Assembly (NCBI GenBank): GCA_026770025.1
Contig: JAMXDE010000023.1
Location: 1,031,472 to 1,095,471, forward strand
DNA length: 64,000 bases
Direction: 5' to 3'
Origin: Craspedostauros australis
Taxonomy: Eukaryota; Bacillariophyta; Bacillariophyceae; Mastogloiales; Achnanthaceae
The notes under the pieces were generated by a model. That model did no database searches, was not told the DNA's origin, and saw only the letters and a list, made by a program, of their open reading frames with translations. Shown in pieces: positions 29,466-62,400 of the stretch (the first letter of the stretch is position 1; every line of letters starts with the position of its first letter). The position numbers were made by a program, and so were the translations under genes.

Positions 29466-32400
29466 ATGAAGAGACTGATCATGAAGGTTTCTTCCCTTGC
29501 GATCCTGGCGACCCTCTCCGTGCTTTGCACCAGCGTGAACGGGGCGCAGGAAATCAACATTCCCAAGGTGCACCACAAGGAACTCGTGGAATGGATCCAA
29601 GCCAACGGCGGATACGTCAACCCAAACCAGGAACTGCGTGACGATGGCCGCATGTACGCGCTCGAGGACATCGAGGAAGGCGACGTCTTGCTGCATCTGC
29701 CAGTCGAGACCATCATCGATGGCGACGCGCAAATGGATTATGCCACCTACAAGAACAACACCGACGACAAGGCCCTGATCCGCTGCGGCCTCATCCACTA
29801 CCTGCTGCGACAGAAGAATGCCATCGACAAGATCTACGACGACAGGTTCGATCAGGTCCGACAAGATCACAACCTCGAGCTCGACATTGAGGACATCGTG
29901 TTCGGTCCGTACGTGCAGTACGTCTTCACCAACGCCAAGGAGCATGCCATCCCAAGCCTCTGGAGCCGGGGTGGCAGAGCTCTCTTCGACTCCGTCATCG
30001 GACACAAGCTCAAATACATGCCCAAGGAATACCGCCTGCCACCCGTCGATGCAACATCGTGGTTCGTCGAGGACTTCCTGCAGCATTGCGAGCAAATCCC
30101 ATACGCGGACATTACCATGTCCGACATTCGTCAGGCCGTGGCGTGGGTCGTAGCCCATGGTCAGATCAACGAGCTGCGACCAGGTACCGAATGGTACCGT
30201 CATCAGAACGGATACGCCACCAATGTCGAGATCGATTTTGTTCTGGACGAAAATAATACCGATAGCGGCACGGACGTCGATCCCATCAAGGTCGTCGCCA
30301 TGCAGGACATTTCCAAGGGCGAGGAGCTCATTCAGTCCTACAATCTGTGCCACACCTGCGGTCTGAAGCGGGAGACCTACGGTATGCCAGGTGAGTGATG
30401 GACGCATGCGTACCTGTGCATGTCCTATGTTTGATGCTGTCTCATGAGTGTTAACGTCATTTCTCCGTGTCACATGCACCATGAACATGCTTCTTCTGAC
30501 CGTACTGCGTGATACTCTGCCATCTCTCTCCACGCTTGTTTCCCACCATGTTGCCATGAGATGCATTCACCACTCCATCCATTGTGAACGATTTATTCAG
30601 AGATATTCCGTGATCACGGATTCATCGAGGAGTACCCACGTCGGTTCATTTTCATGGAGGAGGAGTACGGCTTCGTCGTGCGCAAGGACGAAGATGGGAT
30701 CATCGACTTTCAATGGATCGAAATCGACGATCCGGATGACGAGGATCTGCAGGATGACGAGCCCGACGTCAATAGCGGCGAGGAGTATGAACCTACCAGA
30801 AAGCAATTCCAAGGTGCGCTGGAGAATTTCTACCGCCTCAACCGATTGCAGCTCTTTGATTTCGACGATGGCAAGGAGGCGTGGGAGGAGAGCCACGACA
30901 TGGTAGTCGCGGATGCAGAATGGAATAGTACCATGCAATACGTCAGCGCCACCGTCGAAGGACTCAAGCTCGCCATCGAGAACATTAAGTCCACAACCAT
31001 CAAGTGCTACAATGTGGGGGCAGACGATGACGAGAGTGACGACGATGACGATGACGATGGCGATGTCACATGCATCTACACGGGTCTGTACCACCCACAG
31101 ACCAAGCCACACGGCTTCCAGAAGCAAGGTAAATCGTGCGACGTGGATGCACAATTGGGATTTGAGGACTACAAAATCACGGAGGACTTCGCCACCGAGT
31201 ACCAAGCCATCTGCTATCAGGTGGAAAAGAACGAGGACGGGACCGAAAAGAAGGATGGCAACATCTGCATGGATCTGGATGACACAGTCCAGATCTGCAG
31301 CAATTACCGTCCGCACTACCACGAGTACAGCGTTCACTACGCCGCACGCTACATCGACTCCGTCAAGCGAGTCATGTTCATCGGTGGTGGAGATGCGATG
31401 ATCCTGCACGAGGTGCTCAAGTATCCCGAACTGGAAGTGGTGGTGGGACTGGAGCTGGACCAGCAGGTGGTGCGAACCTCCTTCAAATGGTTCCAGAGCC
31501 AGCCACATTTCGATGACGAGCGCGTGCAATGGTGGTTCGGCGATGCCACCAAATCGTTGCTCCTTCTTCCCAAGGACTGGGCCAACTCGTTCGATCTCAT
31601 CGTCGTGGACCTGTCCGAGACAGTGGCCAGCCTGACCGTGACGGATCATCTTGATGTTCTTGAGGCGCTCTCCATGTACCTCAAGCCGGATGGTGTCATG
31701 CTCAAGAACGAGCTGTACTTCGAAAAGATGTCCCGCACCTTCGACTACTCCCTCGAGTTCCAGTACTACGACTGCCCCATGATCTGCGACCAAACCATGG
31801 TGATCGGCAGCAACGGCATCGACCTGTTCCACAAGGAATTGGTGAACCACCAGCTCGATGGTGATCTGCTCATCCTACCAGAGTACGACGATCTCCCAGA
31901 CCATTTCTACCTCGTCCACGACTTCGGCATCAACAATGCCACGGAGGAAGGCAAGTGCCGTGCCTACGAACAGGCCGTCGAGGAGTCGAAGAAGACCAAA
32001 TCATCCCTGACGTCGAGAAGCAAGGGCATCCTGCTGGTGCTGGACATGGAGAAATGTGACTCCATCCCAACGCTCGCAATCACAACCGCCCTCGAGAGCG
32101 TCGGCCTCACCATTCAAAACACGGTGGAACACGATGCCGACGGCGTGACCATCATCATGAAGGAAGGATACGCAAACATTCGACACTGGCCTGAGCAAAA
32201 GTACGCCGCCGTCGATGTCATGCTCTGGAAATCGTTCAACCAGCTCCTCGATCTTGAGAATCGTGCCACCCAGATCACCAAGGCCACCAACGCGCAGCTG
32301 GCAGTCGCAAGCTACCGCGTCATCGTGTCTGGCATCTACGGTGCCGACGAAGGCGAAGAGATTGGCATCGACCTCACCAAGCACACCCGCAACTGCGAGG

Positions 32401-33692
32401 TGGCACAACTACCGCAAGCGAAGGAGGAGCTGAACGCCACGACCATCCGCAACTCGTTCCTCCAGGTGATGGTGGATGACCTGAACAGCGAAGACGTTGA
32501 TGAGGATGAAGACGGAGAAGACGAGAACATCGTGCTGATCTTGTGCGGGTCATCAACGACGCCGTGCGAAGCACAAGCGGGGTTCCATGAAACCGAGACC
32601 AAAGTCAAGTCCGTCTTGTTCTTTTGCGACGTGCCCACCAATTCTGTGGGAGAGAAACTGTACAGAGAGCTGTACGGGTGCGAGTACGACTTGTTCCAAC
32701 TCGTCGACGAACGGCTGGAGGATGGCGAATACATCGCCGCTATCGTTCTGGATGTGAACGCTGACAAGCACACGGGCATGATCTTCCGCAGCTTCCTCTC
32801 CAACCAGAAGGCCTTGACGCATTTCATGGCGCCCCAGTACACCATCCTGATGCCGGGGCAAGAAACCAAGCAAGAGAAGTGGCGCGATGCTCTGCTCACA
32901 AACCACTTCCGCTTCCTCAAGATGGATCCTCTCTTCCGCGTTGATTTTCAACTGCAGGACACGAACCGTGCCATGAAGATGGAGATGATCGTGTCGGGAA
33001 ATGCGCGTGCGCTGAATGAAGTTTATGAGGCCGAAAGTAACTTGCGTGAGCTTCTGCCATCCATGTCCGTCAACGTGCGCAACATCCAAGGCGGCATGGC
33101 TCGTGCGAAGGAGCGTGGTGAGTACCAGCCCCACAACTTCCCACCATCCGCGTACGACGCCACCGATTCCAACACGCAGTTCATGACGCAGCAGCCGCTC
33201 GGTCGACAGACGATCCTGCAGCTGAATTTGGGATCGGCCGACCAAACCCATGCCGCTGTGCAGAAGACCTTCGTGGATGCACTCGAAAAGAAGTATACCG
33301 GCGCCACCGTGAAGCAAACCATGCCAATGGGCAGTGCCCTGTTCGTCGTGGCCAAGCATGCCAGCGGCACCGCCATGCTGCTGTGGGATGGAAAGACGCA
33401 CGCCACCGTCAACGTTTGGTCGACGCTGGAGAGGAAGAAACTGGCGGATTCGTTCCTGAAGGAGCTGACCAAGGCCAAGTGGGTTCGCGAATTGCGGGAT
33501 GACATGCCACGGGGCATCAACCGCGTCGTGAACTTTGAAAGCGACTGGACCGCCAACCGTATAGAAGATCCCGACGCCGTTGATAACGCCGACGGCGACG
33601 ATGCTGGCGACACCGGAAAAGAGAAGAGCGCCGAGAAGGGCAAACCGGAGGCGGCCGATGAACCTGATGATGCCATCAAGCAGGAGCTGTAA
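29466..33692 (+). CDS. Secretory SET / aminopropyltransferase-like / degenerate AdoMetDC-like fusion protein
   Basis: Exons 29466-30390 and 30601-33692 join in phase 1 to 1338 residues. Start MKRLIMKVSSLAILATLSVL gives a clear signal peptide with cleavage near VNGA-QE. Residues ~30-345 form a SET domain of the Rubisco-LSMT type (GRMYALEDIEEGDVLLHLP; GEELIQSYNLCHTCG; then FRDHGFIEEYPRRFIF). Residues ~520-760 resemble spermidine synthase: DDTVQICSNYRPHYHEYSVH, then IGGGD at 569-573, GLELDQQVV, FDDERVQWWFGDA, and VVDLSE where the family usually has DSSD. At ~790-880 comes an AdoMet-decarboxylase (SpeD)-like stretch, IRHWPEQKYAAVDV (Trp838), with the self-cleaving Ser replaced by Gly831 and the downstream Cys missing. 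A further SpeD-like block (MLLWDGKTHATVNVW) is near 1240. The protein ends KQEL, a KDEL-like ER-retention signal. Inferred role: protein-lysine or polyamine modification in the ER lumen. Confidence 0.8.
30391..30600 (+). other. Intron in the SET fusion gene
   Basis: Donor CCAG|GTGAGT, acceptor ATTCAG, phase 1. The join reads YGMPEIFRDHGFIEEYP, matching the usual continuation of this SET family, so the placement is firm. Confidence 0.85.
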
Positions 33693-37297: not shown

Positions 37298-39439
37298 CTA
37301 TTGAATGATTCCGCGGCAATGCATGTACCTGTTGCGCAGATCCAATCGCTTGACACCGGAGAACTTGCAACTATCGACTTCGTTCAATTGCGCGTTGCTG
37401 TCGAGGAATGTGCCCAACGGAGCGATGGAGAACTGCTGCGAGAGGGAATGCTGCACAAGCAAATGGATATTCGTTTGGATGCATGGTGCGCCGTTGTCGT
37501 CACGAATGCAGTCGGCTTTCGTGTGTGATGCCGGCAGGAGGTCTTGTGCAGTCAGCGCTTTGAAGGGCGCCATGTCGTTCTCGTCTTCGATGACGAGCGC
37601 ACATTTGGATGCCTCGTCATTCACACCGTCACTTTCAATCTCAACCGTTCCTTTGTTTCTTTCGCGCAAGATCATTCCCACCACGATGCCGTAATGGGCA
37701 CCGAATCCATGCAAGTTGCACGGCGCCCGCGTGCGCGAGTTGGAATCGTAAGGAAGGATAACGAGACCATCCTGCTGCAGCGTCCTTAGCATATCAGCAG
37801 CGACGGCCAACGCCGACGATTGCGTATCCGTCTCGTCCAATTTCGTGATGGCTTTCATCTCGCAGTCAATGCCGCAGATTTCTTCGGCCAGCGTGCGCAG
37901 ATTGTTCATGTCAAAGATTTCGCCATCCGACGAAAAGCCACGCGATTGAGCAGCATCCAGCAACGATGGCATAGCCGTGGGTGTTGTTGTTGTTGTTGCT
38001 CCTGCCTTGCTGTCATCCTGCGTCGACGGTGATCTCTCGTGCAAGTAGTCCCGGACCATCCGCAATGCTGCCAATCCGCAGGAAGGTCCGATCTGCTGCT
38101 GCCATGGGACGGAATTGAGCCAGACCTTGAACGACGCAGGTATCACCGGTGGTTTGTCGGCCACTGTTGTCTCCTTTTCTGACGGATAGTTCTGCAGATA
38201 TTTTGTCAATTGATCTTTCCGTTGTATCAGCGGTATGCTCTGTGCACCCACCCTTTCCACCAATCGCTTCTTGAGCCACACATCTTCCACGGGAGCGGCT
38301 TCTTGCGATGCGGACTGATCGGGCGCATCATCTGGCAGCAACGTGATGGTCTCCGCCTTCGCGCTTGCCGCGGCCGACGCACTCTTGCCGTTCTTTGATT
38401 GCATCCGCAGCAGCATGCCTTCCAACGAGGAAATTTGTGTGACATCCAACGATTTTAAGCATGCGCGGTAGAGCGACACGCGGTGCGTGTGCTGATACCC
38501 AAGCCTTTCGTAAAAGCCGATCGCCGTCTGCGTCCACAGGTAGATGTAGTGATACCCCAATCGCACGGCTTCCGCTTCCAGCATGCGCATGAGCATCCTG
38601 CCGTACCCGGACTTTCGGTTTTCGGGATGGATCATGAGGTACGTGACGGCGGCAGCGTTGCCGCCTGCGCCTTCGAAGCAATCCGTGAGTCTGCCATGCC
38701 TGCGGGGCGCCACGTGAAAAAGTTGAGTGCGAAACACGTGGAGCATGTTGCATGCGATGAGATACGAGTACAACAGCATGGCTGTCGCTGTGGCAGCTAC
38801 ATGGGTATATGCAATACCTTCCTTGGCTCTGAAACCCTCAAATAGCCAGCAGAAACACGATGTGCAAGCATCACGCGAAATCATGACCTACCCAATACAT
38901 TCTTCTCCATTTCGAATCATCAAGTAGCTGCATGGCAGGGCATACTGCGCATCGCAGCAGTGAAGTGGTTCGGCATGCATCGAATTGCTTCCAGTGTCCG
39001 AGTGCGACGACGACGGGCCATGTGTGCCTCCTCCTTGTTCCGACGCGGTCGCGGTGGATGGCAACGGCGGTGACAGCAGCTTGTCTCGGTACACAGCAAT
39101 CGGACCCCCGCGAGGCCATTGCTGATTCAGGATGCCGGATCCTTGTCCCAACCACAGTTGCGCCAACGCGGATTCCTCATCCTGCGCGCAAGCATTCGAT
39201 GGATTGGCACCGTCTGATTTCCTCGCGCCGCGCTGTCGCGACAATGATGACAGACGGATGAGCGTGAACGTCTCGCTGCGATCGCATGATGTGGAGCCGT
39301 CGGCGATCACCTCGCAGTCGCCATGCTTGGCCATGCGATCACTGCCATCCACGCGCAGGATGACATCGAAGCCGATCGTCGGTGTGGCAGTCGCACATCC
39401 ATTCTCGCAGTCTTCGTTTTCAGCGGAGGCTGTCGTCAT
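37298..39439 (-). CDS. Fusion of NAA80-type actin N-acetyltransferase and ACTMAP-type actin maturation protease
   Basis: Exons 39439-38892 and 38699-37298 join in phase 2 to 649 residues. The N-terminal half is a GNAT acetyltransferase with NAA80 features: LNQQWPR at ~104-110, CIGHGRLTDC across the splice junction, VTYLMIHPENRKSGYGRMLM with the acetyl-CoA loop at 211-216, and YLWTQTAIGFYERLGYQ at 237-252. A charged linker (~275-370) follows. The C-terminal part matches ACTMAP/C19orf54: VPWQQQIGPSCGLAALRM with candidate nucleophile Cys390, SLLDAAQSRGFSSDGEIFD, LVILPYDSNSRTRAPC, and GFGAHYGIVVGM with candidate catalytic His518. In animals ACTMAP removes the acetylated first residue of actin and NAA80 acetylates the newly exposed acidic N-terminus. 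One polypeptide here would carry both activities, in the cytosol. No signal peptide. The family calls are from remembered motifs, but they agree along the whole length. Confidence 0.82.
38700..38891 (-). other. Intron in the NAA80-ACTMAP fusion gene
   Basis: Donor ATTGG|GTAGGT, acceptor CCCCGCAG, phase 2. Splicing reconstitutes the GNAT beta-strand CIGHGRL; without it the upstream frame stops at once (CIG-stop). Confidence 0.85.
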
Positions 39440-47439: not shown

Positions 47440-50400
47440 TCACTGTCTGGTGTAGTCGATGGAGACTTCCACAGAATCTTCCTGACCTTCTTCACTGCAG
47501 AAGGATCCCACGGCTTCTGAGTGGTCAACCCGAACAGTCAGCTGTGAACCCATCAGATTCGAGTTGAAGACCGCCGCTGTCACGACGAAATCTGTCTGGT
47601 ATGGTACCATATTGCAATCCCCGGAGTGATCATTGGAGCCGGCGTTGGGAACGAAGGTGCCAATTACGGAATCGGATCCATCGAAAACGACAACCGAAAA
47701 TTCGATCTCGTGGCCAAAGTCGCCCCTCAAACTCAGGGTGACCGTGACGACGGTATTTAGCGCTGCTGCAGGCATTCCATTGAACACAATCGTGTTTGGA
47801 GTGTCTCTGAGAATTTCATGTTCTCCGCTTGACACAGAAACGAGTGGATCGGCTGACGGTGTCAACGAAGGTGCGCTCGAAGGTGCGCTAGTTGGTGCTG
47901 CTGTCGCAACTGTTGGCGCCGATGTTGGGTTGCTTGTCGGCGTTGCTGTTGTCACGGTTGGCGCCGATGTTGGGTTCGAAGTGGGTGAATCAGTCGCGAT
48001 ACTTGGAGTTGCTGATGGTGCGACTGACGGTGATTCGCTGTGCTTCTCTGTTGGAACCGATGTTGGATTGCTTGTCGGCGTTGCTGTTGTCACGGTTGGC
48101 GCCGATGTTGGGTTGGAAGTGGGTGAATCAGTCGCGATACTTGGCTTCGATGACGGAGCAGCAGAAGGCGAGTCGCTGTGCTTCTCTGTTGGAACCGATG
48201 TTGGGTTGCTTGTCGGCGTTGCTGTTGTCACAGTTGGCGCCGATGTTGGGTTCGAAGTGGGTGAATCAGTCGCGATACTTGGCTTCGATGACGGAGCAGC
48301 AGAAGGCGAGTCGCTGTGCTTCTCTGTTGGAACCGATGTTGGATTGCTTGTCGGCGTTGCTGTTGTCACGGTTGGCGCCGATGTTGGGTTCGAAGTGGGT
48401 GAATCAGTCGCGATACTTGGAGTTGCTGATGGTGCGACTGACGGTGATTCGCTGTGCTTCTCTGTTGGAGCCGATGTTGGGTTGCTTGTCGGCGTTGCTG
48501 TTGTCACGGTTGGCGCCGATGTTGGGTTCGAAGTGGGTGAATCAGTCGCGATACTTGGCTTCGATGACGGAGCAGCAGAAGGCGAGTCGCTGTGCCTCTC
48601 TGTTGGTGTAGATGTTGGATTTGAAGTGGGTGAATCCGTCGCAGCACTTGGAGTTGCTGAGGGTGCGACAGACGGTGATTCGCTGTGCTTATCTGTTGGT
48701 GCTGATGTTGGAGTTTCTGTCGGAGATTCCGTCGCAGCACTTGGAGATGACGATGGAGCTCTTGATGGTGACTCGCTGTGCTTCTTTGTCGGTGCTGATG
48801 TCGGATTTGCTGTCGGAGATTCCGTCGCAGCACTTGGAGATGACGATGGTGTGGTCGAAGGCGATTCGCTGTGCTTCTCTGTTGGCGCTGAAGTTGGGCT
48901 ACTCGTCGGCGTCGCAGTTGTTACGGTTGGCGCCGATGTTGGATTTGCTGTCGGAGATTCCGTCGTAGCACTTGGAGATGACGATGGAGCTCTTGATGGT
49001 GACTCGCTGTGCTTATCTGTCGGCGCTGATGTCGGATTCGAAGTAGGCGAATCCGTCGCAACACTTGGAGTTGCTGATGGTGTGACTGACGGTGATTCGC
49101 TGTGCTTCTCTGTTGGAGCCGATGTTGGGTTGCTTGTCGGCGTTGCTGTTGTCACAGTTGGCGCCGATGTTGGGTTCGAAGTGGGTGAATCAGTCGCGAT
49201 ACTTGGGGTTGCTGATGGTGTGACTGACGGTGATTCGCTGTGCTTCTCTGTTGGAGCCGATGTTGGGGTACTCGTTGGTGTTGCTGTTGTCACAGTTGGC
49301 GCCGATGTTGGGTTCGAAGTGGGTGAATCAGTCGCGATACTTGGCTTCGATGACGGAGCAGCAGAAGGCGAGTCGCTGTGCCTCTCTGTTGGTGTAGATG
49401 TTGGATTTGAAGTGGGCGAATCCGTCGCAGCACTTGGAGTTGCTGAGGGTGCGACAGACGGTGATTCGCTGTGCTTATCTGTTGGTGCTGATGTTGGAGT
49501 TTCTGTCGGAGATTCCGTCGCAGCACTTGGAGATGACGATGGAGCTCTTGATGGTGACTCGCTGTGCTTCTTTGTCGGTGCTGATGTCGGATTTGCTGTC
49601 GGAGATTCCGTCGCAGCACTTGGAGATGACGATGGTGTGGTCGAAGGCGATTCGCTGTGCTTCTCTGTTGGCGCTGAAGTTGGGCTACTCGTCGGCGTCG
49701 CAGTTGTTACGGTTGGTGCAGATGTTGGATTTGCTGTTGGAGATTCCGTCGTAGCACTTGGAGATGACGATGGAGCTCTTGATGGTGACTCGCTGTGCTT
49801 CTCTGTCGGCGTTGATGTCGGATTCGAAGTAGGCGAATCCGTCGCAACGCTTGGCGCTGACGAAGGCTTTGCTGACGGCGATTCACTTCCCCTTCTTGTC
49901 GGTGCTGATGTTGGATTTGCTGTCGGTGATTCCGTCGCAACACTTGGAGACAACGATGGTGCGGTCGAAGGCGATTCGCTGTGTTTTTCAGTTGGCGCAG
50001 ATGTTGGATTGGAAGTAGGCGAATCCATCGCAACACTTGGAGTTGCTGATGGTGTGACAGACGGTGATACGCTGTTCTTCTTTGTTGGAGCCGATGTTGG
50101 GCTACTCGTCGGCGTCGCAGTTATCACGGTGGGTGCCGATGTTGGGTCGGAAGTTGGCGATTCTGATGCAACACTTGGCGCTGACGTTGGAGCGCTGGTC
50201 GGCATCACCGTTGCGTCGCTTGGTGCTGATGATGGCTCTTCCGATGGAGATCCGCTATCTTCTTGCGTCGGGGTTGACGAAAGATCTTGTGACGGAATGA
50301 ACGAAGGTGACACTGATTCAGAACTTGGTGCGTCTGACTCTGACGAAGGCTCGACACTGGACATCGTGGGAAGTTCGCTTGTCTCGCTTGGCGTCAACGA

Positions 50401-53400
50401 GGGGACAGATGATGGAGAAGCACTTGACAGAGTCGGTATCTCTGACGGGAATCCGCTTCCTGCGGTCGGTTTGTTACTGGTTGGAAGCGACGCTGATTCA
50501 TTTCCATCGGTCGGTACCGTGGACGGTGTCGCGCTTGGAGAATCACTTGACGCACTGGGTGTCAATGACGGGGTTGGCGATGGCATCTCGCTACCTGATG
50601 GAACCTCGCTGGACTCTGTTGGTGCTGCACTTGGTACCTCAGTCTGCAGCGACGGCATCGCAGAAGGCACGGACGAAGGCGACCTACTCGGGACATCACT
50701 GGATGCACTCGGTGTTGATGATGGTGCTGAGGATGGTGCTGATGATGGAGACTCACCGTTTGATGGCAAGCTGCTCGGCACATCACTCGACGCACTGGGT
50801 GTCGATGACGGGGTTGACGATGGCATCTCGCTACCTGATGGAACCTCGCTGGACTTTGTCGGTGCTGCACTTGGTACCTCAGTCTGCAGCGACGGCATCG
50901 CAGAAGGCACGGACGAAGGCGACCTACTCGGGACATCACTGGATGCACTCGGTGTTGATGATGGTGCTGAGGATGGTGCTGATGATGGAGACTCACCGTT
51001 TGATGGCAAGCTGCTCGGCACATCACTCGACGCACTGGGTGTCGATGATGGGGTTGGCGATGGCATCTCGCTACCTGATGGAACCTCGCTGGACTCTGTT
51101 GGTGCTGCACTTGGTACCTCAGTCTGCAGCGACGGCATCGCAGAAGGCACGGACGAAGGCGACCTACTCGGGACATCACTGGATGCACTCGGTGTTGATG
51201 ATGGTGCTGATGATGGAGACTCACCGTTTGATGGCAAGCTGCTCGGCACATCACTCGACGCACTGGGTGTCGATGACGGGGTTGACGATGGCATCTCGCT
51301 ACCTGATGGAACCTCGCTGGACTTTGTCGGTGCTGCACTTGGTACCTCAGTCTGTAGCGACGGCATTGCAGAAGGCGCGAACGAAGGCGACCTACTCGGG
51401 ACATCACTGGATGCACTCGGTGTTGATGATGGTGCTGAGGATGGTGCTGATGATGGAGACTCACCGTTTGATGGCAAGCTGCTCGGCACATCACTCGACG
51501 CACTGGGTGTCGATGACGGGGTTGGCGATGGCATCTCGCTACCTGATGGAACCTCGCTGGACTTTGTCGGTGCTGCACTTGGTACCTCAGTCTGTAGCGA
51601 CGGCATTGCAGAAGGCGCGGACGAAGGCGACCTACTCGGGACATCACTGGATGCACTCGGTGTTGATGATGGTGCTGATGATGGTGCTGAGGATGGTGCT
51701 GATGATGGAGACTCGCCGTTTGATGGCAAGCTGCTCGGCACATCACTCGACGCACTGGGTGTCGATGATGGGGTTGGCGATGGCATCTCGCTACCTGATG
51801 GAACCTCGCTGGACTTTGTCGGTGCTGCACTTGGTACCTCAGTCTGTAGCGACGGCATTGCAGAAGGCGCGGACGAAGGCGACCTACTCGGGACATCACT
51901 GGATGCACTCGGTGTTGATGATGGTGCTGAGGATGGTGCTGATGATGGAGACTCACCGTTTGATGGCAAGCTGCTCGGCACATCACTTGACGCACTGGGT
52001 GTCGATGACGGCGCCGCAGATGGCGACTCACTGCCAGACGGATTTCCGCTCGGAGCTCGACTGTTCGAAGAGGTACTGCTCGGAACATTACTTGACGCAC
52101 TCGGCTGTGTTGATGGTGCCGATGATGGTGTTTCACTGCTCGATGGTTGGGCACTTGGAATCTCACTGGATGCACTGGGCTGTGCTGACGGTGCAGAGGA
52201 TGGAGACTCACTTCCGGATGGCCGTGCACTTGGAACATCACTCGATGTGCTCGGGATGGATGATGGTGTCAGTGACGGATTTCCACTTGGGACATCACTG
52301 GATGCGCTCGGCGTCAATGTAGGCATCGTTGATGGCATCTGACTGGTTGAAGGTGCGCTACTCGGCACATTACTTGATGTGCTCGGCTGTGTTGATGGCG
52401 CTGACGAGGGTGATTCACTGCTCGATGGTTGAGAGCTTGGAACAGCACTCGTCGAACTTGGCTGTGTTGATGGTGCTGACGAGGGTGATTCACTGCTCGA
52501 TGGTTGAGCACTTGGCACGCCACTGGAGGTGCTTGGCTGTGTTGATGGTGTTGCTGACGGTGATGCACTGGTATCAGCAACACTGCTTGGGTTGTTGCTT
52601 GGCGAAGCACTTGGCGACTTGCTTGGTGCACTGGAATCAGCGACACTGCTTGGGTTGTTGCTGGGTGCGGATGATGGCGAAGTACTTGGTGCGTTGGTAT
52701 CAGCGACACTGCTTGGGTTGTTGCTTGGCGATGTGCTTGGCGAAGTACTTGGTGCACTGGAATCAGCGACACTGCTTGGGTTGTTGCTTGGCGATGTGCT
52801 TGGCGACTTGCTTGGTGCACTGGAATCAGCGACACTGCTTGGGTTGTTGCTGGGTGCGGATGATGGCGAAGTACTTGGTGCACTGGAATCAGCGACACTG
52901 CTTGGGTTGTTGCTTGGCGATGTGCTTGGCGAAGTACTTGGTGCACTGGAATCAGCGACACTGCTTGGGTTGTTGCTTGGCGATGTGCTTGGCGAAGTAC
53001 TTGGTGCACTGGAATCAGCGACACTGCTTGGGTTGTTGCTTGGCGATGTGCTTGGCGACTTGCTTGGTGCACTGGAATCAGCGACACTGCTTGGGTTGTT
53101 GCTGGGTGCGGATGATGGCGAAGTACTTGGTGCACTGGAATCAGCGACACTGCTTGGGTTGTTGCTTGGCGATGTGCTTGGCGAAGTACTTGGTGCACTG
53201 GAATCAGCGACACTGCTTGGGTTGTTGCTTGGCGATGTGCTTGGCGACTTGCTTGGTGCACTGGAATCAGCGACACTGCTTGGGTTGTTGCTGGGTGCGG
53301 ATGATGGCGAAGTACTTGGTGCACTGGAATCAGCGACACTGCTTGGGTTGTTGCTTGGCGATGTGCTTGGCGAAGTACTTGGTGCACTGGAATCAGCGAC

Positions 53401-56400
53401 ACTGCTTGGGTTGTTGCTTGGCGATGTGCTTGGCGAAGTACTTGGTGCACTGGAATCAGCGACACTGCTTGGGTTGTTGCTTGGCGATGTGCTTGGCGAC
53501 TTGCTTGGTGCACTGGAATCAGCGACACTGCTTGGGTTGTTGCTGGGTGCGGATGATGGCGAAGTACTTGGTGCACTGGAATCAGCGACACTGCTTGGGT
53601 TGTTGCTTGGCGATGTGCTTGGCGAAGTACTTGGTGCACTGGAATCAGCGACACTGCTTGGGTTGTTGCTTGGCGATGTGCTTGGCGACTTGCTTGGTGC
53701 ACTGGAATCAGCGACACTGCTTGGGTTGTTGCTGGGTGCGGATGATGGCGAAGTACTTGGTGCACTGGAATCAGCGACACTGCTTGGGTTGTTGCTTGGC
53801 GATGTGCTTGGCGAAGTACTTGGTGCACTGGAATCAGCGACACTGCTTGGGTTGTTGCTTGGCGATGTGCTTGGCGACTTGCTTGGTGCACTGGAATCAG
53901 CGACACTGCTTGGGTTGTTGCTGGGTGCGGATGATGGCGAAGTACTTGGTGCACTGGAATCAGCGACACTGCTTGGGTTGTTGCTTGGCGATGTGCTTGG
54001 CGAAGTACTTGGTGCACTGGAATCAGCGACACTGCTTGGGTTGTTGCTTGGCGATGTGCTTGGCGACTTGCTTGGTGCACTGGAATCAGCGACACTGCTT
54101 GGGTTGTTGCTGGGTGCGGATGATGGCGAAGTACTTGGTGCACTGGAATCAGCGACACTGCTTGGGTTGTTGCTGGGTGCGGATGATGGCGAAGTACTTG
54201 GTGCGTTGGTATCAGCGACACTGCTTGGGTTGTTGCTTGGCGATGTGCTTGGCGAAGTACTTGGTGCACTGGAATCAGCGACACTGCTTGGGTTGTTGCT
54301 GGGTGCGGATGATGGCGAAGTACTTGGTGCACTGGAATCAGCGACACTGCTTGGGTTGTTGCTTGGCGATGTGCTTGGCGAAGTACTTGGTGCACTGGAA
54401 TCAGCGACACTGCTTGGGTTGTTGCTTGGCGATGTGCTTGGCGAAGTACTTGGTGCACTGGAATCAGCGACACTGCTTGGGTTGTTGCTTGGCGATGTGC
54501 TTGGCGAAGTACTTGGTGCACTGGAATCAGCGACACTGCTTGGGTTGTTGCTTGGCGATGTGCTTGGCGAAGTACTTGGTGCACTGGAATCAGCGACACT
54601 GCTTGGGTTGTTGCTTGGCGATGTGCTTGGCGAAGTACTTGGTGCACTGGAATCAGCGACACTGCTTGGGTTGTTGCTTGGCGATGTGCTTGGCGAAGTG
54701 CTTGGTGCACTGGTATCACCGACACTGCTTGGGTTGTTGCTGGGTGCGGATGATGGCGAAGTACTTGGTGCACTGGAATCAGCGACACTGCTTGGGTTGT
54801 TGCTTGGCGATGTGCTTGGCGAAGTGCTTGGTGCACTGGAATCAGCGACACTGCTTGGGTTGTTGCTTGGCGATGTGCTTGGCGAAGTACTTGGTGCACT
54901 GGTATCAGCGACACTGCTTGGGTTGTTGCTTGGCGATGTGCTTGGCGAAGTACTTGGTGCACTGGAATCACCGACACTGCTTGGGTTGTTGCTTGGCGAT
55001 GTGCTTGGCGAAGTACTTGGTGCACTGGAATCAGCGACACTGCTTGGGTTGTTGCTTGGCGATGTGCTTGGCGAAGTACTTGGTGCACTGGAATCAGCGA
55101 CACTGCTTGGGTTGTTGCTTGGCGATGTGCTTGGCGACTTGCTTGGTGCACTGGAATCAGCGACACTGCTTGGGTTGTTGCTGGGTGCGGATGATGGCGA
55201 AGTACTTGGTGCACTGGAATCAGCGACACTGCTTGGGTTGTTGCTTGGCGATGTGCTTGGCGACTTGCTTGGTGCACTGGAATCAGCGACACTGCTTGGG
55301 TTGTTGCTGGGTGCGGATGATGGCGAAGTACTTGGTGCACTGGAATCAGCGACACTGCTTGGGTTGTTGCTTGGCGATGTGCTTGGCGAAGTACTTGGTG
55401 CACTGGAATCAGCGACACTGCTTGGGTTGTTGCTTGGCGATGTGCTTGGCGAAGTACTTGGTGCACTGGAATCAGCGACACTGCTTGGGTTGTTGCTTGG
55501 CGATGTGCTTGGCGACTTGCTTGGTGCACTGGAATCAGCGACACTGCTTGGGTTGTTGCTGGGTGCGGATGATGGCGAAGTACTTGGTGCACTGGAATCA
55601 GCGACACTGCTTGGGTTGTTGCTTGGCGATGTGCTTGGCGAAGTACTTGGTGCACTGGAATCAGCGACACTGCTTGGGTTGTTGCTTGGCGATGTGCTTG
55701 GCGACTTGCTTGGTGCACTGGAATCAGCGACACTGCTTGGGTTGTTGCTGGGTGCGGATGATGGCGAAGTACTTGGTGCACTGGAATCAGCGACACTGCT
55801 TGGGTTGTTGCTTGGCGATGTGCTTGGCGAAGTACTTGGTGCACTGGAATCAGCGACACTGCTTGGGTTGTTGCTTGGCGATGTGCTTGGCGACTTGCTT
55901 GGTGCACTGGAATCAGCGACACTGCTTGGGTTGTTGCTGGGTGCGGATGATGGCGAAGTACTTGGTGCACTGGAATCAGCGACACTGCTTGGGTTGTTGC
56001 TTGGCGATGTGCTTGGCGAAGTACTTGGTGCGTTGGTATCACCGACACTGCTTGGGTTGTTGCTTGGCGATGTGCTTGGCGATGTGCTTGGCGAAGTACT
56101 TGGTGCACTGGTATCACCGACACTGCTTGGGTTGTTGCTTGGCGATGTGCTTGGCGATGTGCTTGGCGAAGTACTTGGTGCACTGGTATCACCGACACTG
56201 CTTGGGTTGTTGCTTGGCGATGTGCTTGGCGATGTGCTTGGCGAAGTACTTGGTGCACTGGAATCAGCGACACTGCTTGGGTTGTTGCTGGGTGCGGATG
56301 ATGGTGCGGTAGTTGGTGCGTTGGTATCACCCACGCTGCTTGGGTTGTTGCTTGGCGATGTGCTTGGTGACTTGCTTGGCGACGTGCTTGGCGAAGTACT

Positions 56401-59400
56401 TGGTGCACTGGTATCACCGACACTGCTTGGGTTGTTGCTGGGTGCGGATGATGGTGCGGTAGTTGGTGCGTTGGTATCACCCACGCTGCTTGGGTTGTTG
56501 CTTGGCGATGTGCTTGGTGACTTGCTTGGCGACGTGCTTGGCGAAGTACTTGGTGCACTGGTATCACCGACACTGCTTGGGTTGTTGCTGGGTGCGGATG
56601 ATGGTGCGGTAGTTGGTGCGTTGGTATCACCCACGCTGCTTGGGTTGTTGCTTGGCGACGTGCTTGGCGACTTGCTTGGCGACGTGCTTGGCGAAGTGCT
56701 TGGTGCACTGGTATCACCGACACTGCTTGGGTTGTTGCTGGGTGCGGATGATGGTGCGGTAGTTGGTGCGTTGGTATCACCCACGCTGCTTGGGTTGTTG
56801 CTTGGCGATGTGCTTGGTGACTTGCTTGGCGACGTGCTTGGCGAAGTACTTGGTGCACTGGTATCACCGACACTGCTTGGGTTGTTGCTGGGTGCGGATG
56901 ATGGTGCGGTAGTTGGTGCGTTGGTATCACCCACGCTGCTTGGGTTGTTGCTTGGCGATGTGCTTGGTGAAGCACTTGGCGACGTGCTTGGCGAAGTACT
57001 TGGTGCACTGGTATCACCGACACTGCTTGGGTTGTTGCTGGGTGCGGATGATGGTGCGGTAGTTGGTGCGTTGGTATCACCCACGCTGCTTGGGTTGTTG
57101 CTTGGCGATGTGCTTGGCGATGTGCTTGGTGAAGCACTTGGCGATGCACTTGGCGAAGTGCTTGGTGCACTGGTATCACCGACACTGCTTGGGTTGTTGC
57201 TGGGTGCGGATGATGGTGCGGTAGTTGGTGCGTTGGTATCACCCACGCTGCTTGGGTTGTTGCTTGGCGATGTGCTTGGTGACTTGCTTGGCGACGTGCT
57301 TGGCGAAGTACTTGGTGCACTGGAATCAGCGACACTGCTTGGGTTGTTGCTGGGTGCGGATGATGGTGCGGTAGTTGGTGCGTTGGTATCACCCACGCTG
57401 CTTGGGTTGTTGCTTGGCGATGTGCTTGGTGACTTGCTTGGCGACGTGCTTGGCGAAGTACTTGGTGCACTGGTATCACCGACACTGCTTGGGTTGTTGC
57501 TGGGTGCGGATGATGGTGCGGTAGTTGGTGCGTTGGTATCACCCACGCTGCTTGGGTTGTTGCTTGGCGATGTGCTTGGTGACTTGCTTGGCGACGTGCT
57601 TGGCGAAGTACTTGGTGCACTGGTATCACCGACACTGCTTGGGTTGTTGCTGGGTGCGGATGATGGTGCGGTAGTTGGTGCGTTGGTATCACCCACGCTG
57701 CTTGGGTTGTTGCTTGGCGACGTGCTTGGCGATGTGCTTGGTGAAGCACTTGGCGACGTGCTTGGCGAAGTACTTGGTGCACTGGTATCACCGACACTGC
57801 TTGGGTTGTTGCTGGGTGCGGATGATGGTGCGGTAGTTGGTGCGTTGGTATCACCCACGCTGCTTGGGTTGTTGCTTGGCGACGTGCTTGGCGATGTGCT
57901 TGGTGAAGCACTTGGCGACGTGCTTGGCGAAGTACTTGGTGCACTGGTATCACCGACACTGCTTGGGTTGTTGCTGGGTGCGGATGATGGTGCGGTAGTT
58001 GGTGCGTTGGTATCACCCACGCTGCTTGGGTTGTTGCTTGGCGACGTGCTTGGCGATGTGCTTGGTGAAGCACTTGGCGACGTGCTTGGCGAAGTACTTG
58101 GTGCACTGGTATCACCGACACTGCTTGGGTTGTTGCTGGGTGCGGATGATGGTGCGGTAGTTGGTGCGTTGGTATCACCCACGCTGCTTGGGTTGTTGCT
58201 TGGCGACGTGCTTGGCGATGTGCTTGGTGAAGCACTTGGCGACGTGCTTGGCGAAGTACTTGGTGCACTGGTATCACCGACACTGCTTGGGTTGTTGCTG
58301 GGTGCGGATGATGGTGCGGTAGTTGGTGCGTTGGTATCACCCACGCTGCTTGGGTTGTTGCTTGGCGACGTGCTTGGCGATGTGCTTGGCGACGTGCTTG
58401 GTGAAGCACTTGGCGACGTGCTTGGCGAAGTACTTGGTGCACTGGTATCACCGACACTGCTTGGGTTGTTGCTGGGTGCGGATGATGGTGCGGTAGTTGG
58501 TGCGTTGGTATCACCCACGCTGCTTGGGTTGTTGCTTGGCGACGTGCTTGGCGATGTGCTTGGCGACGTGCTTGGTGAAGCACTTGGCGACGTGCTTGGC
58601 GAAGTACTTGGTGCACTGGTATCACCGACACTGCTTGGGTTGTTGCTGGGTGCGGATGATGGTGCGGTAGTTGGTGCGTTGGTATCACCCACGCTGCTTG
58701 GGTTGTTGCTTGGCGACGTGCTTGGCGATGTGCTTGGTGAAGCACTTGGCGACGTGCTTGGCGAAGTACTTGGTGCACTGGTATCACCGACACTGCTTGG
58801 GTTGTTGCTGGGTGCGGATGATGGTGCGGTAGTTGGTGCGTTGGTATCACCCACGCTGCTTGGGTTGTTGCTTGGCGACGTGCTTGGCGATGTGCTTGGT
58901 GAAGCACTTGGCGACGTGCTTGGCGAAGTACTTGGTGCACTGGTATCACCGACACTGCTTGGGTTGTTGCTGGGTGCGGATGATGGTGCGGTAGTTGGTG
59001 CGTTGGTATCACCCACGCTGCTTGGGTTGTTGCTTGGCGACGTGCTTGGCGATGTGCTTGGCGACGTGCTTGGTGAAGCACTTGGCGACGTGCTTGGCGA
59101 AGTACTTGGTGCACTGGTATCACCGACACTGCTTGGGTTGTTGCTGGGTGCGGATGATGGTGCGGTAGTTGGTGCGTTGGTATCACCCACGCTGCTTGGG
59201 TTGTTGCTTGGCGACGTGCTTGGCGATGTGCTTGGTGAAGCACTTGGCGACGTGCTTGGCGAAGTACTTGGTGCACTGGTATCACCGACACTGCTTGGGT
59301 TGTTGCTGGGTGCGGATGATGGTGCGGTAGTTGGTGCGTTGGTATCACCCACGCTGCTTGGGTTGTTGCTTGGCGACGTGCTTGGCGATGTGCTTGGTGA

Positions 59401-62400
59401 AGCACTTGGCGACGTGCTTGGCGAAGTACTTGGTGCACTGGTATCACCGACACTGCTTGGGTTGTTGCTGGGTGCGGATGATGGTGCGGTAGTTGGTGCG
59501 TTGGTATCACCCACGCTGCTTGGGTTGTTGCTTGGCGACGTGCTTGGCGATGTGCTTGGCGACGTGCTTGGTGAAGCACTTGGCGACGTGCTTGGCGAAG
59601 TACTTGGTGCACTTGGCGACGTGCTTGGTGACGTGCTTGGCGATGCACTTGGCGACGTGCTTGGCGAAGTACTTGGTGCACTGGTATCACCGACACTGCT
59701 TGGGTTGTTGCTGGGTGCGGATGATGGTGCGGTAGTTGGTGCGTTGGTATCACCCACGCTGCTTGGGTTGTTGCTTGGCGACGTGCTTGGCGATGTGCTT
59801 GGTGAAGCACTTGGCGACGTGCTTGGCGAAGTACTTGGTGCACTGGTATCACCGACACTGCTTGGGTTGTTGCTGGGTGCGGATGATGGTGCGGTAGTTG
59901 GTGCGTTGGTATCACCCACGCTGCTTGGGTTGTTGCTTGGCGACGTGCTTGGCGATGTGCTTGGTGAAGCACTTGGCGACGTGCTTGGCGAAGTACTTGG
60001 TGCACTGGTATCACCGACACTGCTTGGGTTGTTGCTGGGTGCGGATGATGGTGCGGTAGTTGGTGCGTTGGTATCACCCACGCTGCTTGGGTTGTTGCTT
60101 GGCGACGTGCTTGGCGATGTGCTTGGCGACGTGCTTGGTGAAGCACTTGGCGACGTGCTTGGCGAAGTACTTGGTGCACTGGTATCACCGACACTGCTTG
60201 GGTTGTTGCTGGGTGCGGATGATGGTGCGGTAGTTGGTGCGTTGGTATCACCCACGCTGCTTGGGTTGTTGCTTGGCGACGTGCTTGGCGATGTGCTTGG
60301 CGACGTGCTTGGTGAAGCACTTGGCGACGTGCTTGGCGAAGTACTTGGTGCACTGGTATCACCGACACTGCTTGGGTTGTTGCTGGGTGCGGATGATGGT
60401 GCGGTAGTTGGTGCGTTGGTATCACCCACGCTGCTTGGGTTGTTGCTTGGCGACGTGCTTGGCGATGTGCTTGGTGAAGCACTTGGCGACGTGCTTGGCG
60501 AAGTACTTGGTGCACTGGTATCACCGACACTGCTTGGGTTGTTGCTGGGTGCGGATGATGGTGCGGTAGTTGGTGCGTTGGTATCACCCACGCTGCTTGG
60601 GTTGTTGCTTGGCGACGTGCTTGGCGATGTGACGTGCTTGGCGATGTGCTTGGCGAAGTACTTGGTGCTTGGGTTGTTGCTGGGTGCGGATGATGGTGCG
60701 GTAGTTGGTGCGTTGGTATCACCCACGCTGCTTGGGTTGTTGCTTGGCGACGTGCTTGGCGATGTGCTTGGTGAAGCACTTGGCGACGTGCTTGGCGAAG
60801 TACTTGGTGCACTGGTATCACCGACACTGCTTGGGTTGTTGCTGGGTGCGGATGATGGTGCGGTAGTTGGTGCGTTGGTATCACCCACGCTGCTTGGGTT
60901 GTTGCTTGGCGACGTGCTTGGCGATGTGCTTGGTGAAGCACTTGGCGACGTGCTTGGCGAAGTACTTGGTGCACTGGTATCACCGACACTGCTTGGGTTG
61001 TTGCTGGGTGCGGATGATGGTGCGGTAGTTGGTGCGTTGGTATCACCCACGCTGCTTGGGTTGTTGCTTGGCGACGTGCTTGGCGATGTGCTTGGCGATG
61101 TGCTTGGTGAAGCACTTGGCGACGTGCTTGGCGAAGTACTTGGTGCACTGGTATCACCGACACTGCTTGGGTTGTTGCTGGGTGCGGATGATGGTGCGGT
61201 AGTTGGTGCGTTGGTATCACCCACGCTGCTTGGGTTGTTGCTTGGCGACGTGCTTGGCGATGTGCTTGGTGAAGCACTTGGCGACGTGCTTGGCGAAGTA
61301 CTTGGTGCACTGGTATCACCGACACTGCTTGGGTTGTTGCTGGGTGCGGATGATGGTGCGGTAGTTGGTGCGTTGGTATCACCCACGCTGCTTGGGTTGT
61401 TGCTTGGCGACGTGCTTGGCGATGTGCTTGGTGAAGCACTTGGCGACGTGCTTGGCGAAGTACTTGGTGCACTGGTATCACCGACACTGCTTGGGTTGTT
61501 GCTGGGTGCGGATGATGGTGCGGTAGTTGGTGCGTTGGTATCACCCACGCTGCTTGGGTTGTTGCTTGGCGACGTGCTTGGCGATGTGCTTGGTGAAGCA
61601 CTTGGCGACGTGCTTGGTGAAGCACTTGGCGACGTGCTTGGCGACGTGCTTGGCGATGTGCTTGGTGAAGCACTTGGCGACGTGCTTGGCGAAGTACTTG
61701 GTGCACTGGTATCACCGACACTGCTTGGGTTGTTGCTGGGTGCGGATGATGGTGCGGTAGTTGGTGCGTTGGTATCACCCACGCTGCTTGGGTTGTTGCT
61801 TGGCGACGTGCTTGGCGATGTGCTTGGTGAAGCACTTGGCGACGTGCTTGGCGAAGTACTTGGTGCACTGGTATCACCGACACTGCTTGGGTTGTTGCTG
61901 GGTGCGGATGATGGTGCGGTAGTTGGTGCGTTGGTATCACCCACGCTGCTTGGGTTGTTGCTTGGCGACGTGCTTGGCGATGTGCTTGGTGAAGCACTTG
62001 GCGACGTGCTTGGCGAAGTACTTGGTGCACTGGTATCACCGACACTGCTTGGGTTGTTGCTGGGTGCGGATGATGGTGCGGTAGTTGGTGCGTTGGTATC
62101 ACCCACGCTGCTTGGGTTGTTGCTTGGCGACGTGCTTGGCGATGTGCTTGGTGAAGCACTTGGCGACGTGCTTGGCGAAGTACTTGGTGCACTGGTATCA
62201 CCGACACTGCTTGGGTTGTTGCTGGGTGCGGATGATGGTGCGGTAGTTGGTGCGTTGGTATCACCCACGCTGCTTGGGTTGTTGCTTGGCGACGTGCTTG
62301 GCGATGTGCTTGGTGAAGCACTTGGCGACGTGCTTGGCGAAGTACTTGGTGCACTGGTATCACCGACACTGCTTGGGTTGTTGCTGGGTGCGGATGATGG

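Follow-up and report, generated by a model that had tools for sequence, protein, structure and literature searches.

The analyzed window comprises 64,000 nucleotides of a contig of the diatom Craspedostauros australis, and all positions of the locus given below refer to this window. Its minus strand contains a gene of two exons (39439..37298), the spliced product of which has a length of 649 amino acids and consists of an N-terminal GNAT domain resembling the actin N-acetyltransferase NAA80 and a C-terminal cysteine protease domain resembling the actin maturation protease ACTMAP. Exon 1 (38892..39439, minus strand; 548 bp) encodes the N-terminus and the first part of the GNAT domain, including strand beta1 (ETFTLIRL; 39277..39254, minus strand) and the alpha1-alpha2 loop motif WPR (39118..39110, minus strand). 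The following intron (38700..38891, minus strand; 192 bp) is of the GT-AG type, contains stop codons in three frames and, given the length of exon 1, is a phase 2 intron, located inside the codon of the first Gly in CIGHGRL. On exon 2 (37298..38699, minus strand), the GNAT portion that binds acetyl-CoA is followed by the entire protease up to and including the stop codon, and the unspliced reading frame of this exon is open over 528 codons. This exon alone contains the acetyl-CoA motif RKSGYG (38617..38600, minus strand), YLWTQTAIGFYERLGY, the GNAT motif FYERLGY and the joining motif ETITLLPDD...DVWLKKRL, as well as the protease motifs that include Cys390 and His518. The intron thus divides the GNAT domain and not the two enzymes. 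Since the acetyl-CoA-binding part and the protease are located in a single open exon, the fusion could not have been created by intron modelling, and such an artefact was ruled out.

The intron is also supported by homologous sequences. Five of 76 homologs (P0007, P0012, P0017, P0028, and P0037) are apparently unspliced gene calls, in which the transition into the conserved frame reads ...RHGRL. An AG|G acceptor located as in C. australis would yield the first R of this motif. An earlier note on this DNA, made from the sequence alone, had proposed that one gene carries both halves and that a 192-bp intron has to be removed. The first proposal is confirmed by the gene structure, the single exon and the presence of both domains in most homologs (see below), and the second is supported by the GT-AG borders, the stop codons in all frames and the acceptor implied by the five homologs. 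The motifs on which the note had relied, namely LNQQWPR (with W108), CIGHGRL (across the splice site), and FYERLGYQ in the GNAT half and IGPSCGL (with C390), ILPYD, and GAHYGIVVG (with H518) in the protease half, were all found in the spliced protein.

Two other regions of the window contain long open frames. Positions 47440-63989 (minus strand) harbor an open frame of 5482 codons and an overlapping one of 3891 codons, which span long tandem repeats with periods of 63, 138, 162, 240, and others, and which possibly represent a giant repetitive protein. A frame of 1012 codons at positions 30654-33692 (plus strand) harbors a domain of the spermine/spermidine synthase type (E 1.4e-17) and, below threshold, resembles S-adenosylmethionine decarboxylase (E 0.00042; 21.1 bits vs. 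a cut-off of 25), so that a fusion of two polyamine steps is possible.

Within the GNAT half, residues 169-251 matched Pfam Acetyltransf_1 with 50.7 bits (cut-off 20.7); this stretch (38495..38935, minus strand) includes the intron. A profile of the GNAT half, built from 12 rows including the C. australis protein itself, was searched against 177,635 PDB sequences and retrieved NAA80 of the fly at rank 1 (1.2e-23) and of human at rank 2 (1.9e-18), whereas rank 3 reached only 5.5e-10. Consistent with this result, NAA80 structures occupied ranks 1-5 in a Foldseek search with the predicted structure of the homologous fusion P0006, a fold match that concerns the model of a homolog and not the spliced C. 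australis protein. When used alone, the C. australis protein had only a weak similarity to human NAA80 (E 0.003), and the strong family results stem from profiles. The claim of the earlier note that the GNAT domain is NAA80-like is nevertheless borne out, as NAA80 ranked first both by sequence profile and by the fold of the homolog model. In the NCBIfam library, which covers prokaryotic genomes, the GNAT half resembled ArsN2 and other families far under their cut-offs (at best 40 vs. 125 bits). A GNAT classification (PMC7790372) describes NAA80 as acting on folded actin and its alpha1-alpha2 substrate loop as well conserved and distinct in type. Trp108 of the WPR motif, which our own motif comparison assigns to this loop, is matched in the alignment by the Trp with chain index 32 in human NAA80 (6nas), and 61 of 62 aligned rows have Trp at this position. 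The acetyl-CoA loop R/Q-x-x-G-x-G is similarly conserved, with Arg or Gln at residue 211 in 71 of 73 rows and Gly216 in all 73. In the host genome, a 93-residue piece of the GNAT half found a sole other match (E 0.026).

The ACTMAP-like cysteine protease domain comprises residues 321-649 (37301..38287, minus strand), of which residues 383-526 (37670..38101, minus strand) matched the Pfam family PF21646, ACTMAP-like_C, with an E-value of 1.7e-18 and 67.6 bits (cut-off 27). This was the only PF21646 match in the host genome (74.8 Mb in 90 contigs), and none of 14 control genomes contained one. The predicted nucleophile Cys390 (codon at 38078..38080, minus strand) aligns with Cys132 of human ACTMAP, which is described as the catalytic nucleophile in PMC13367750, and the predicted catalytic histidine is His518 in the motif GAHYG (codon at 37694..37696, minus strand). 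Both residues are conserved in 77 of 77 aligned rows. The C-terminal half aligned to a provisional human ACTMAP sequence over 212 columns with a probability of 99.5%, and the C. australis protein alone showed modest similarity to the same provisional sequence. Together with the PF21646 match, this alignment upholds the earlier assignment of the C-terminal half to the ACTMAP type. Because the fold comparison with P0006 covered the GNAT part only, the protease part was modelled and searched separately, and a papain-type fold was predicted. A sequence search of the PDB for a solved relative of the protease half yielded three rows, none of them convincing (best E 0.16), and a match to Peptidase_C39 was weak and under its cut-off (E 0.1). 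Two homologs, P0062 and P0108, carry PF17820, a PDZ-type domain, inside the protease region. In P0062 it lies between the GPSCGL and PSLL stretches, and PF00595 and GNAT are listed as well; P0108 starts at the end of the GNAT domain.

Between the two domains, the sequence ETITLL (38336..38353, minus strand), a conserved motif of the type ETxxLPP, corresponds to the last GNAT strand in the P0006 model. In this model, a stretch of low confidence (about residues 171-230) precedes strand 234-239, which bears the ETxLLPP motif. The aligned GNAT range of P0006 (12..240) includes this strand, and the protease sequence DVWLRKRL follows close behind, which argues that the two domains abut and that the flexible stretch is part of the GNAT domain. 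Their placement relative to each other is a tentative prediction of the model. The joining region is itself conserved: 70 of 73 rows have Glu299, and Lys327-Arg328 occurs in all of 77 rows.

A search with the full-length protein recovered at least 76 homologs. According to precomputed Pfam lists, 72 of the 76 listed contain both domains, the others being P0052, P0053, P0066, and P0071. With two further profile searches, each search scoring at most about 8000 candidates, the set grew to at least 134 proteins; 120 of the 134 possess both domains with the GNAT domain first, as judged by local profiles that were built partly from these proteins themselves. The remaining 14 proteins (130-401 amino acids) begin at the end of the GNAT domain, within the joining region, or only in the protease; these late starts indicate that they are probably truncated gene calls, and some may be true stand-alone proteins. 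The fusion is thus the usual form among the homologs found, a point on which the earlier note had suggested a survey of stramenopile genomes. Its sources include Cylindrotheca closterium, C. fusiformis, Epithemia, Nitzschia Nitz4, Pseudo-nitzschia multistriata, and Bacillariaceae MAGs, all of them diatoms. The fusion was also found in the haptophyte Chrysotila carterae (P0120). Two of the sequences, P0003 and P0133, are open reading frames of MMETSP transcripts, and both halves therefore reside on one mRNA in other species. Two diatom fusions (P0002 and P0134) bear the UniRef name “Actin maturation protease”. Relatives of the protease half were also sought with two peptide patterns in one genome each of 84,980 prokaryotic species, where tblastn confirmed none of 25 pattern matches, and in viral contigs, where none of the 11 and 26 pattern matches from two scans was confirmed.

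The host genome contains 13 matches to the actin family, the four best of which are located on contig C6. N-termini were read in these four; the other nine matches are lower scoring, and some are pieces of exons. The first exon of the four best genes reads MSDDEDIAALVIDNGSGMCK, and their products start with M-S-D-D-E-D, a form that would need both activities. These near-identical genes lie within approximately 14 kb (C6:1241609-1255120) on alternating strands (+ - + -), and share an intron right before AGFAGDD and an identical MSDDEDI start. An auxiliary subunit of NatA was matched in the host with 247 bits; since this family also matched four control prokaryotes, three of them above the cut-off, the host match is supportive only. 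NAA80 of animals works together with profilin. The profilin family PF00235 had no match in the host, in a search that matched none of the control genomes either. A side observation in the same genome concerns 88 matches to silicon transporters (PF03842), an unusually large number for this family; 27 of them score above 800 bits, two of which contain one internal TGA, and many others are pieces. Together with the diatom homologs of the fusion, these transporters indicate a diatom host, which bears on the photosynthetic stramenopile named in the earlier note.

The gene most probably encodes a bifunctional enzyme that would remove acetyl-Ser from actin and then acetylate the exposed Asp. The gene structure, the two domain families, the conservation of the fusion and of its catalytic residues, and the acidic start of actin were observed, whereas we infer both activities, the substrate, their order, and any hand-over between them. 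Host actin is synthesized as M-S-D-D-E-D-I..., and the general machinery would remove the Met and acetylate the Ser. MetAP and NatA, which constitute the established pathway of Met removal and acetylation, are the presumed agents in the host. Next, the papain-fold protease at the C-terminus would use Cys390 and His518 to remove the acetylated Ser and expose Asp, in analogy to ACTMAP, the presumed enzyme for removal of acetyl-Cys from class II actins of animals. Finally, the N-terminal NAA80-like GNAT domain would acetylate the exposed Asp from acetyl-CoA, and with both active sites in one protein actin could be processed in a single encounter. For animal class II actins (Met-Cys-acidic), PMC11465159 presumes a loss of Met and, potentially, an acetylation of Cys, whereupon acetyl-Cys is removed by the actin maturation protease and the acidic residue is acetylated by NAA80. 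The actin start of C. australis follows this pattern, except that Ser replaces Cys, and the protease would therefore have to accept acetyl-Ser. The earlier note had taken the fusion for direct evidence, provided by evolution, of a coupling between the two steps; this view holds as a gene-fusion inference, but not as proof of a hand-over from site to site.

Among the alternatives, the one to be taken most seriously, although unlikely, is that the fusion is real but that actin is not its (main) substrate, and that, as a general or a different post-translational enzyme, it trims and acetylates other proteins with acidic second residues. As is generally known, the substrate specificity of GNATs can shift; moreover, the stretch preceding the last GNAT strand is of low confidence in the model, and profilin, the co-factor in animals, was not matched in the aforementioned search that lacked control matches too. 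However, the four best actin genes of the host start with M-S-DDED, and the Trp of WPR is kept in 61 of 62 rows of a family whose substrate loop, according to PMC7790372, is of its own type and serves an enzyme acting on folded actin. That one half is inactive, for example that a working ACTMAP domain is joined to a GNAT domain that merely binds actin, or the reverse, is very improbable. The conservation of the acetyl-CoA loop (Gly216 in 73/73 rows, Arg or Gln at residue 211 in 71/73) and of Cys390 and His518 (77/77) makes both sites appear constrained.

An origin from the fusions of GNAT and papain-like DUF3335 domains, which would be unrelated to actin maturation, has even less to recommend it and is most improbable. 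DUF3335 (PF11814) proteins are often fused to GNAT domains (PMC10318531), and the sub-threshold Peptidase_C39 match (E 0.1) would agree with such an origin. Yet PF11814 was absent from the Pfam matches of the protein up to E 1, in a list that HMMER filters thin above approximately 0.1, and likewise had no match in the host genome; relatives of the protease half remained unconfirmed across the 84,980 prokaryotic species searched with the two peptide patterns, the GNAT half is nearest to NAA80, and PF21646 occurred in none of the 14 control genomes. This origin was set aside because PF11814 was found neither in the protein nor in the host and prokaryotic relatives were not confirmed. A misreading of two adjacent genes as one was conceivable as long as only the sequence-based earlier note was at hand, but its probability is now close to nil: FYERLGY and the protease Cys and His lie within one open exon, 120 of 134 homologs have the same domain order, Lys327-Arg328 is found in 77 of 77 rows, and the MMETSP transcript P0003 contains both halves.

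How the predicted bifunctional actin-processing enzyme evolved can be addressed only tentatively. A GNAT tree calculated from 36 chosen rows grouped NAA80 of fly and human with the fused protein P0076 (87/89); the unrelated GNAT row 9y12 was also placed in this group, on a very long branch, and support for the deeper fork was weak (61/82). A protease tree (31 chosen rows) joined the provisional human ACTMAP to P0076 (96/88) and placed this pair next to the group that contains P0120 from Chrysotila (82/69), with a warning by the program that long branches meet. The labels “hapto” and “diatom_like” in this tree were assigned by ourselves, P0120 being the only named source among the hapto rows, and animals were represented in the trees by one provisional ACTMAP sequence and two NAA80 fragments. 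The position of the animal enzymes next to P0076, on the side of the haptophyte fusions, in both halves would fit one old fused gene. In plain phmmer scores, P0076 was the best match of fly NAA80, but it was outside the best eight printed for human NAA80 and for the provisional human ACTMAP, so that the trees should be interpreted with restraint. It is possible, though doubtful, that the fused gene is the ancestral form, present as one bifunctional enzyme in an early eukaryote, kept by diatoms, haptophytes, and other algae, split in animals and lost in plants and fungi; a split in animals in particular is weakly supported.

Both steps of actin processing have been called animal-specific (PMC10318143), whereas another source describes N-terminal processing of actin as widespread but not universal (PMC11853071), and actin processing in Dictyostelium had already been described in 1981. 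In the main text of PMC7790372, which places NAA80 in a GNAT classification, no words beginning with diatom, stramenopile, alveolat, or haptophyt occur. Our literature search found no mention of the fusion; an earlier remark in the primary NAA80 and ACTMAP papers is possible. Actin processing outside animals is therefore not new, nor is the annotation of the protease half in UniRef; new as far as the literature was searched are an algal enzyme for actin processing and its fused form. The presence of the fusion in other diatoms and a haptophyte suggests that this processing route, known chiefly from animals, is probably far more ancient and widespread. If conserved in major marine algae, a one-protein version would supply a processing enzyme far outside animals, and conservation of the fusion would argue that both steps were selected to act together. 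It would furthermore offer a single protein for testing both steps, their order and any hand-over, and half-annotated diatom genes would gain a full functional prediction.

Compared to known systems, the GNAT half is most similar to NAA80/NatH (PDB 5wjd, 5wje, 6nas, 6nbe, and 6nbw), its best match by profile and by homolog structure. If chain 6nas_N represents residues 74-308, the WPR Trp and the Arg of the acetyl-CoA loop correspond to residues 105 and 170 of the human enzyme. It differs from NAA80 in the stretch preceding the last GNAT strand, in an identity of only 26-27% in the structure alignment, and in being part of a larger protein outside animals. The protease half shares with human ACTMAP (C19orf54) the family PF21646, a nucleophile aligned with Cys132 and, over residues 107-324 of the provisional human sequence, the motifs GPxCGL, GE-F, PYD, AH(Y/W), and SNxQL. 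In contrast to ACTMAP it is fused behind a GNAT domain, its likely substrate is acetyl-Ser instead of acetyl-Met or acetyl-Cys, and the proline-rich N-terminus of the provisional human sequence has no counterpart in the fusion. The fusions of GNAT with DUF3335 (PF11814) combine a GNAT with a papain-like domain as well, as stated in PMC10318531, but belong to a different protease family by Pfam, and a prokaryotic relative of the protease half was not confirmed in the pattern scan. Further counterparts are the other GNAT-PF21646 fusions of diatoms, such as the “Actin maturation protease” of Cylindrotheca closterium in UniRef, and of Chrysotila carterae. They agree with the C. australis fusion in the order of the domains, in the joining motif and in the catalytic residues, and are 25-44% identical to the C. 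australis protein, whereas the database names encountered for them cover one half only.
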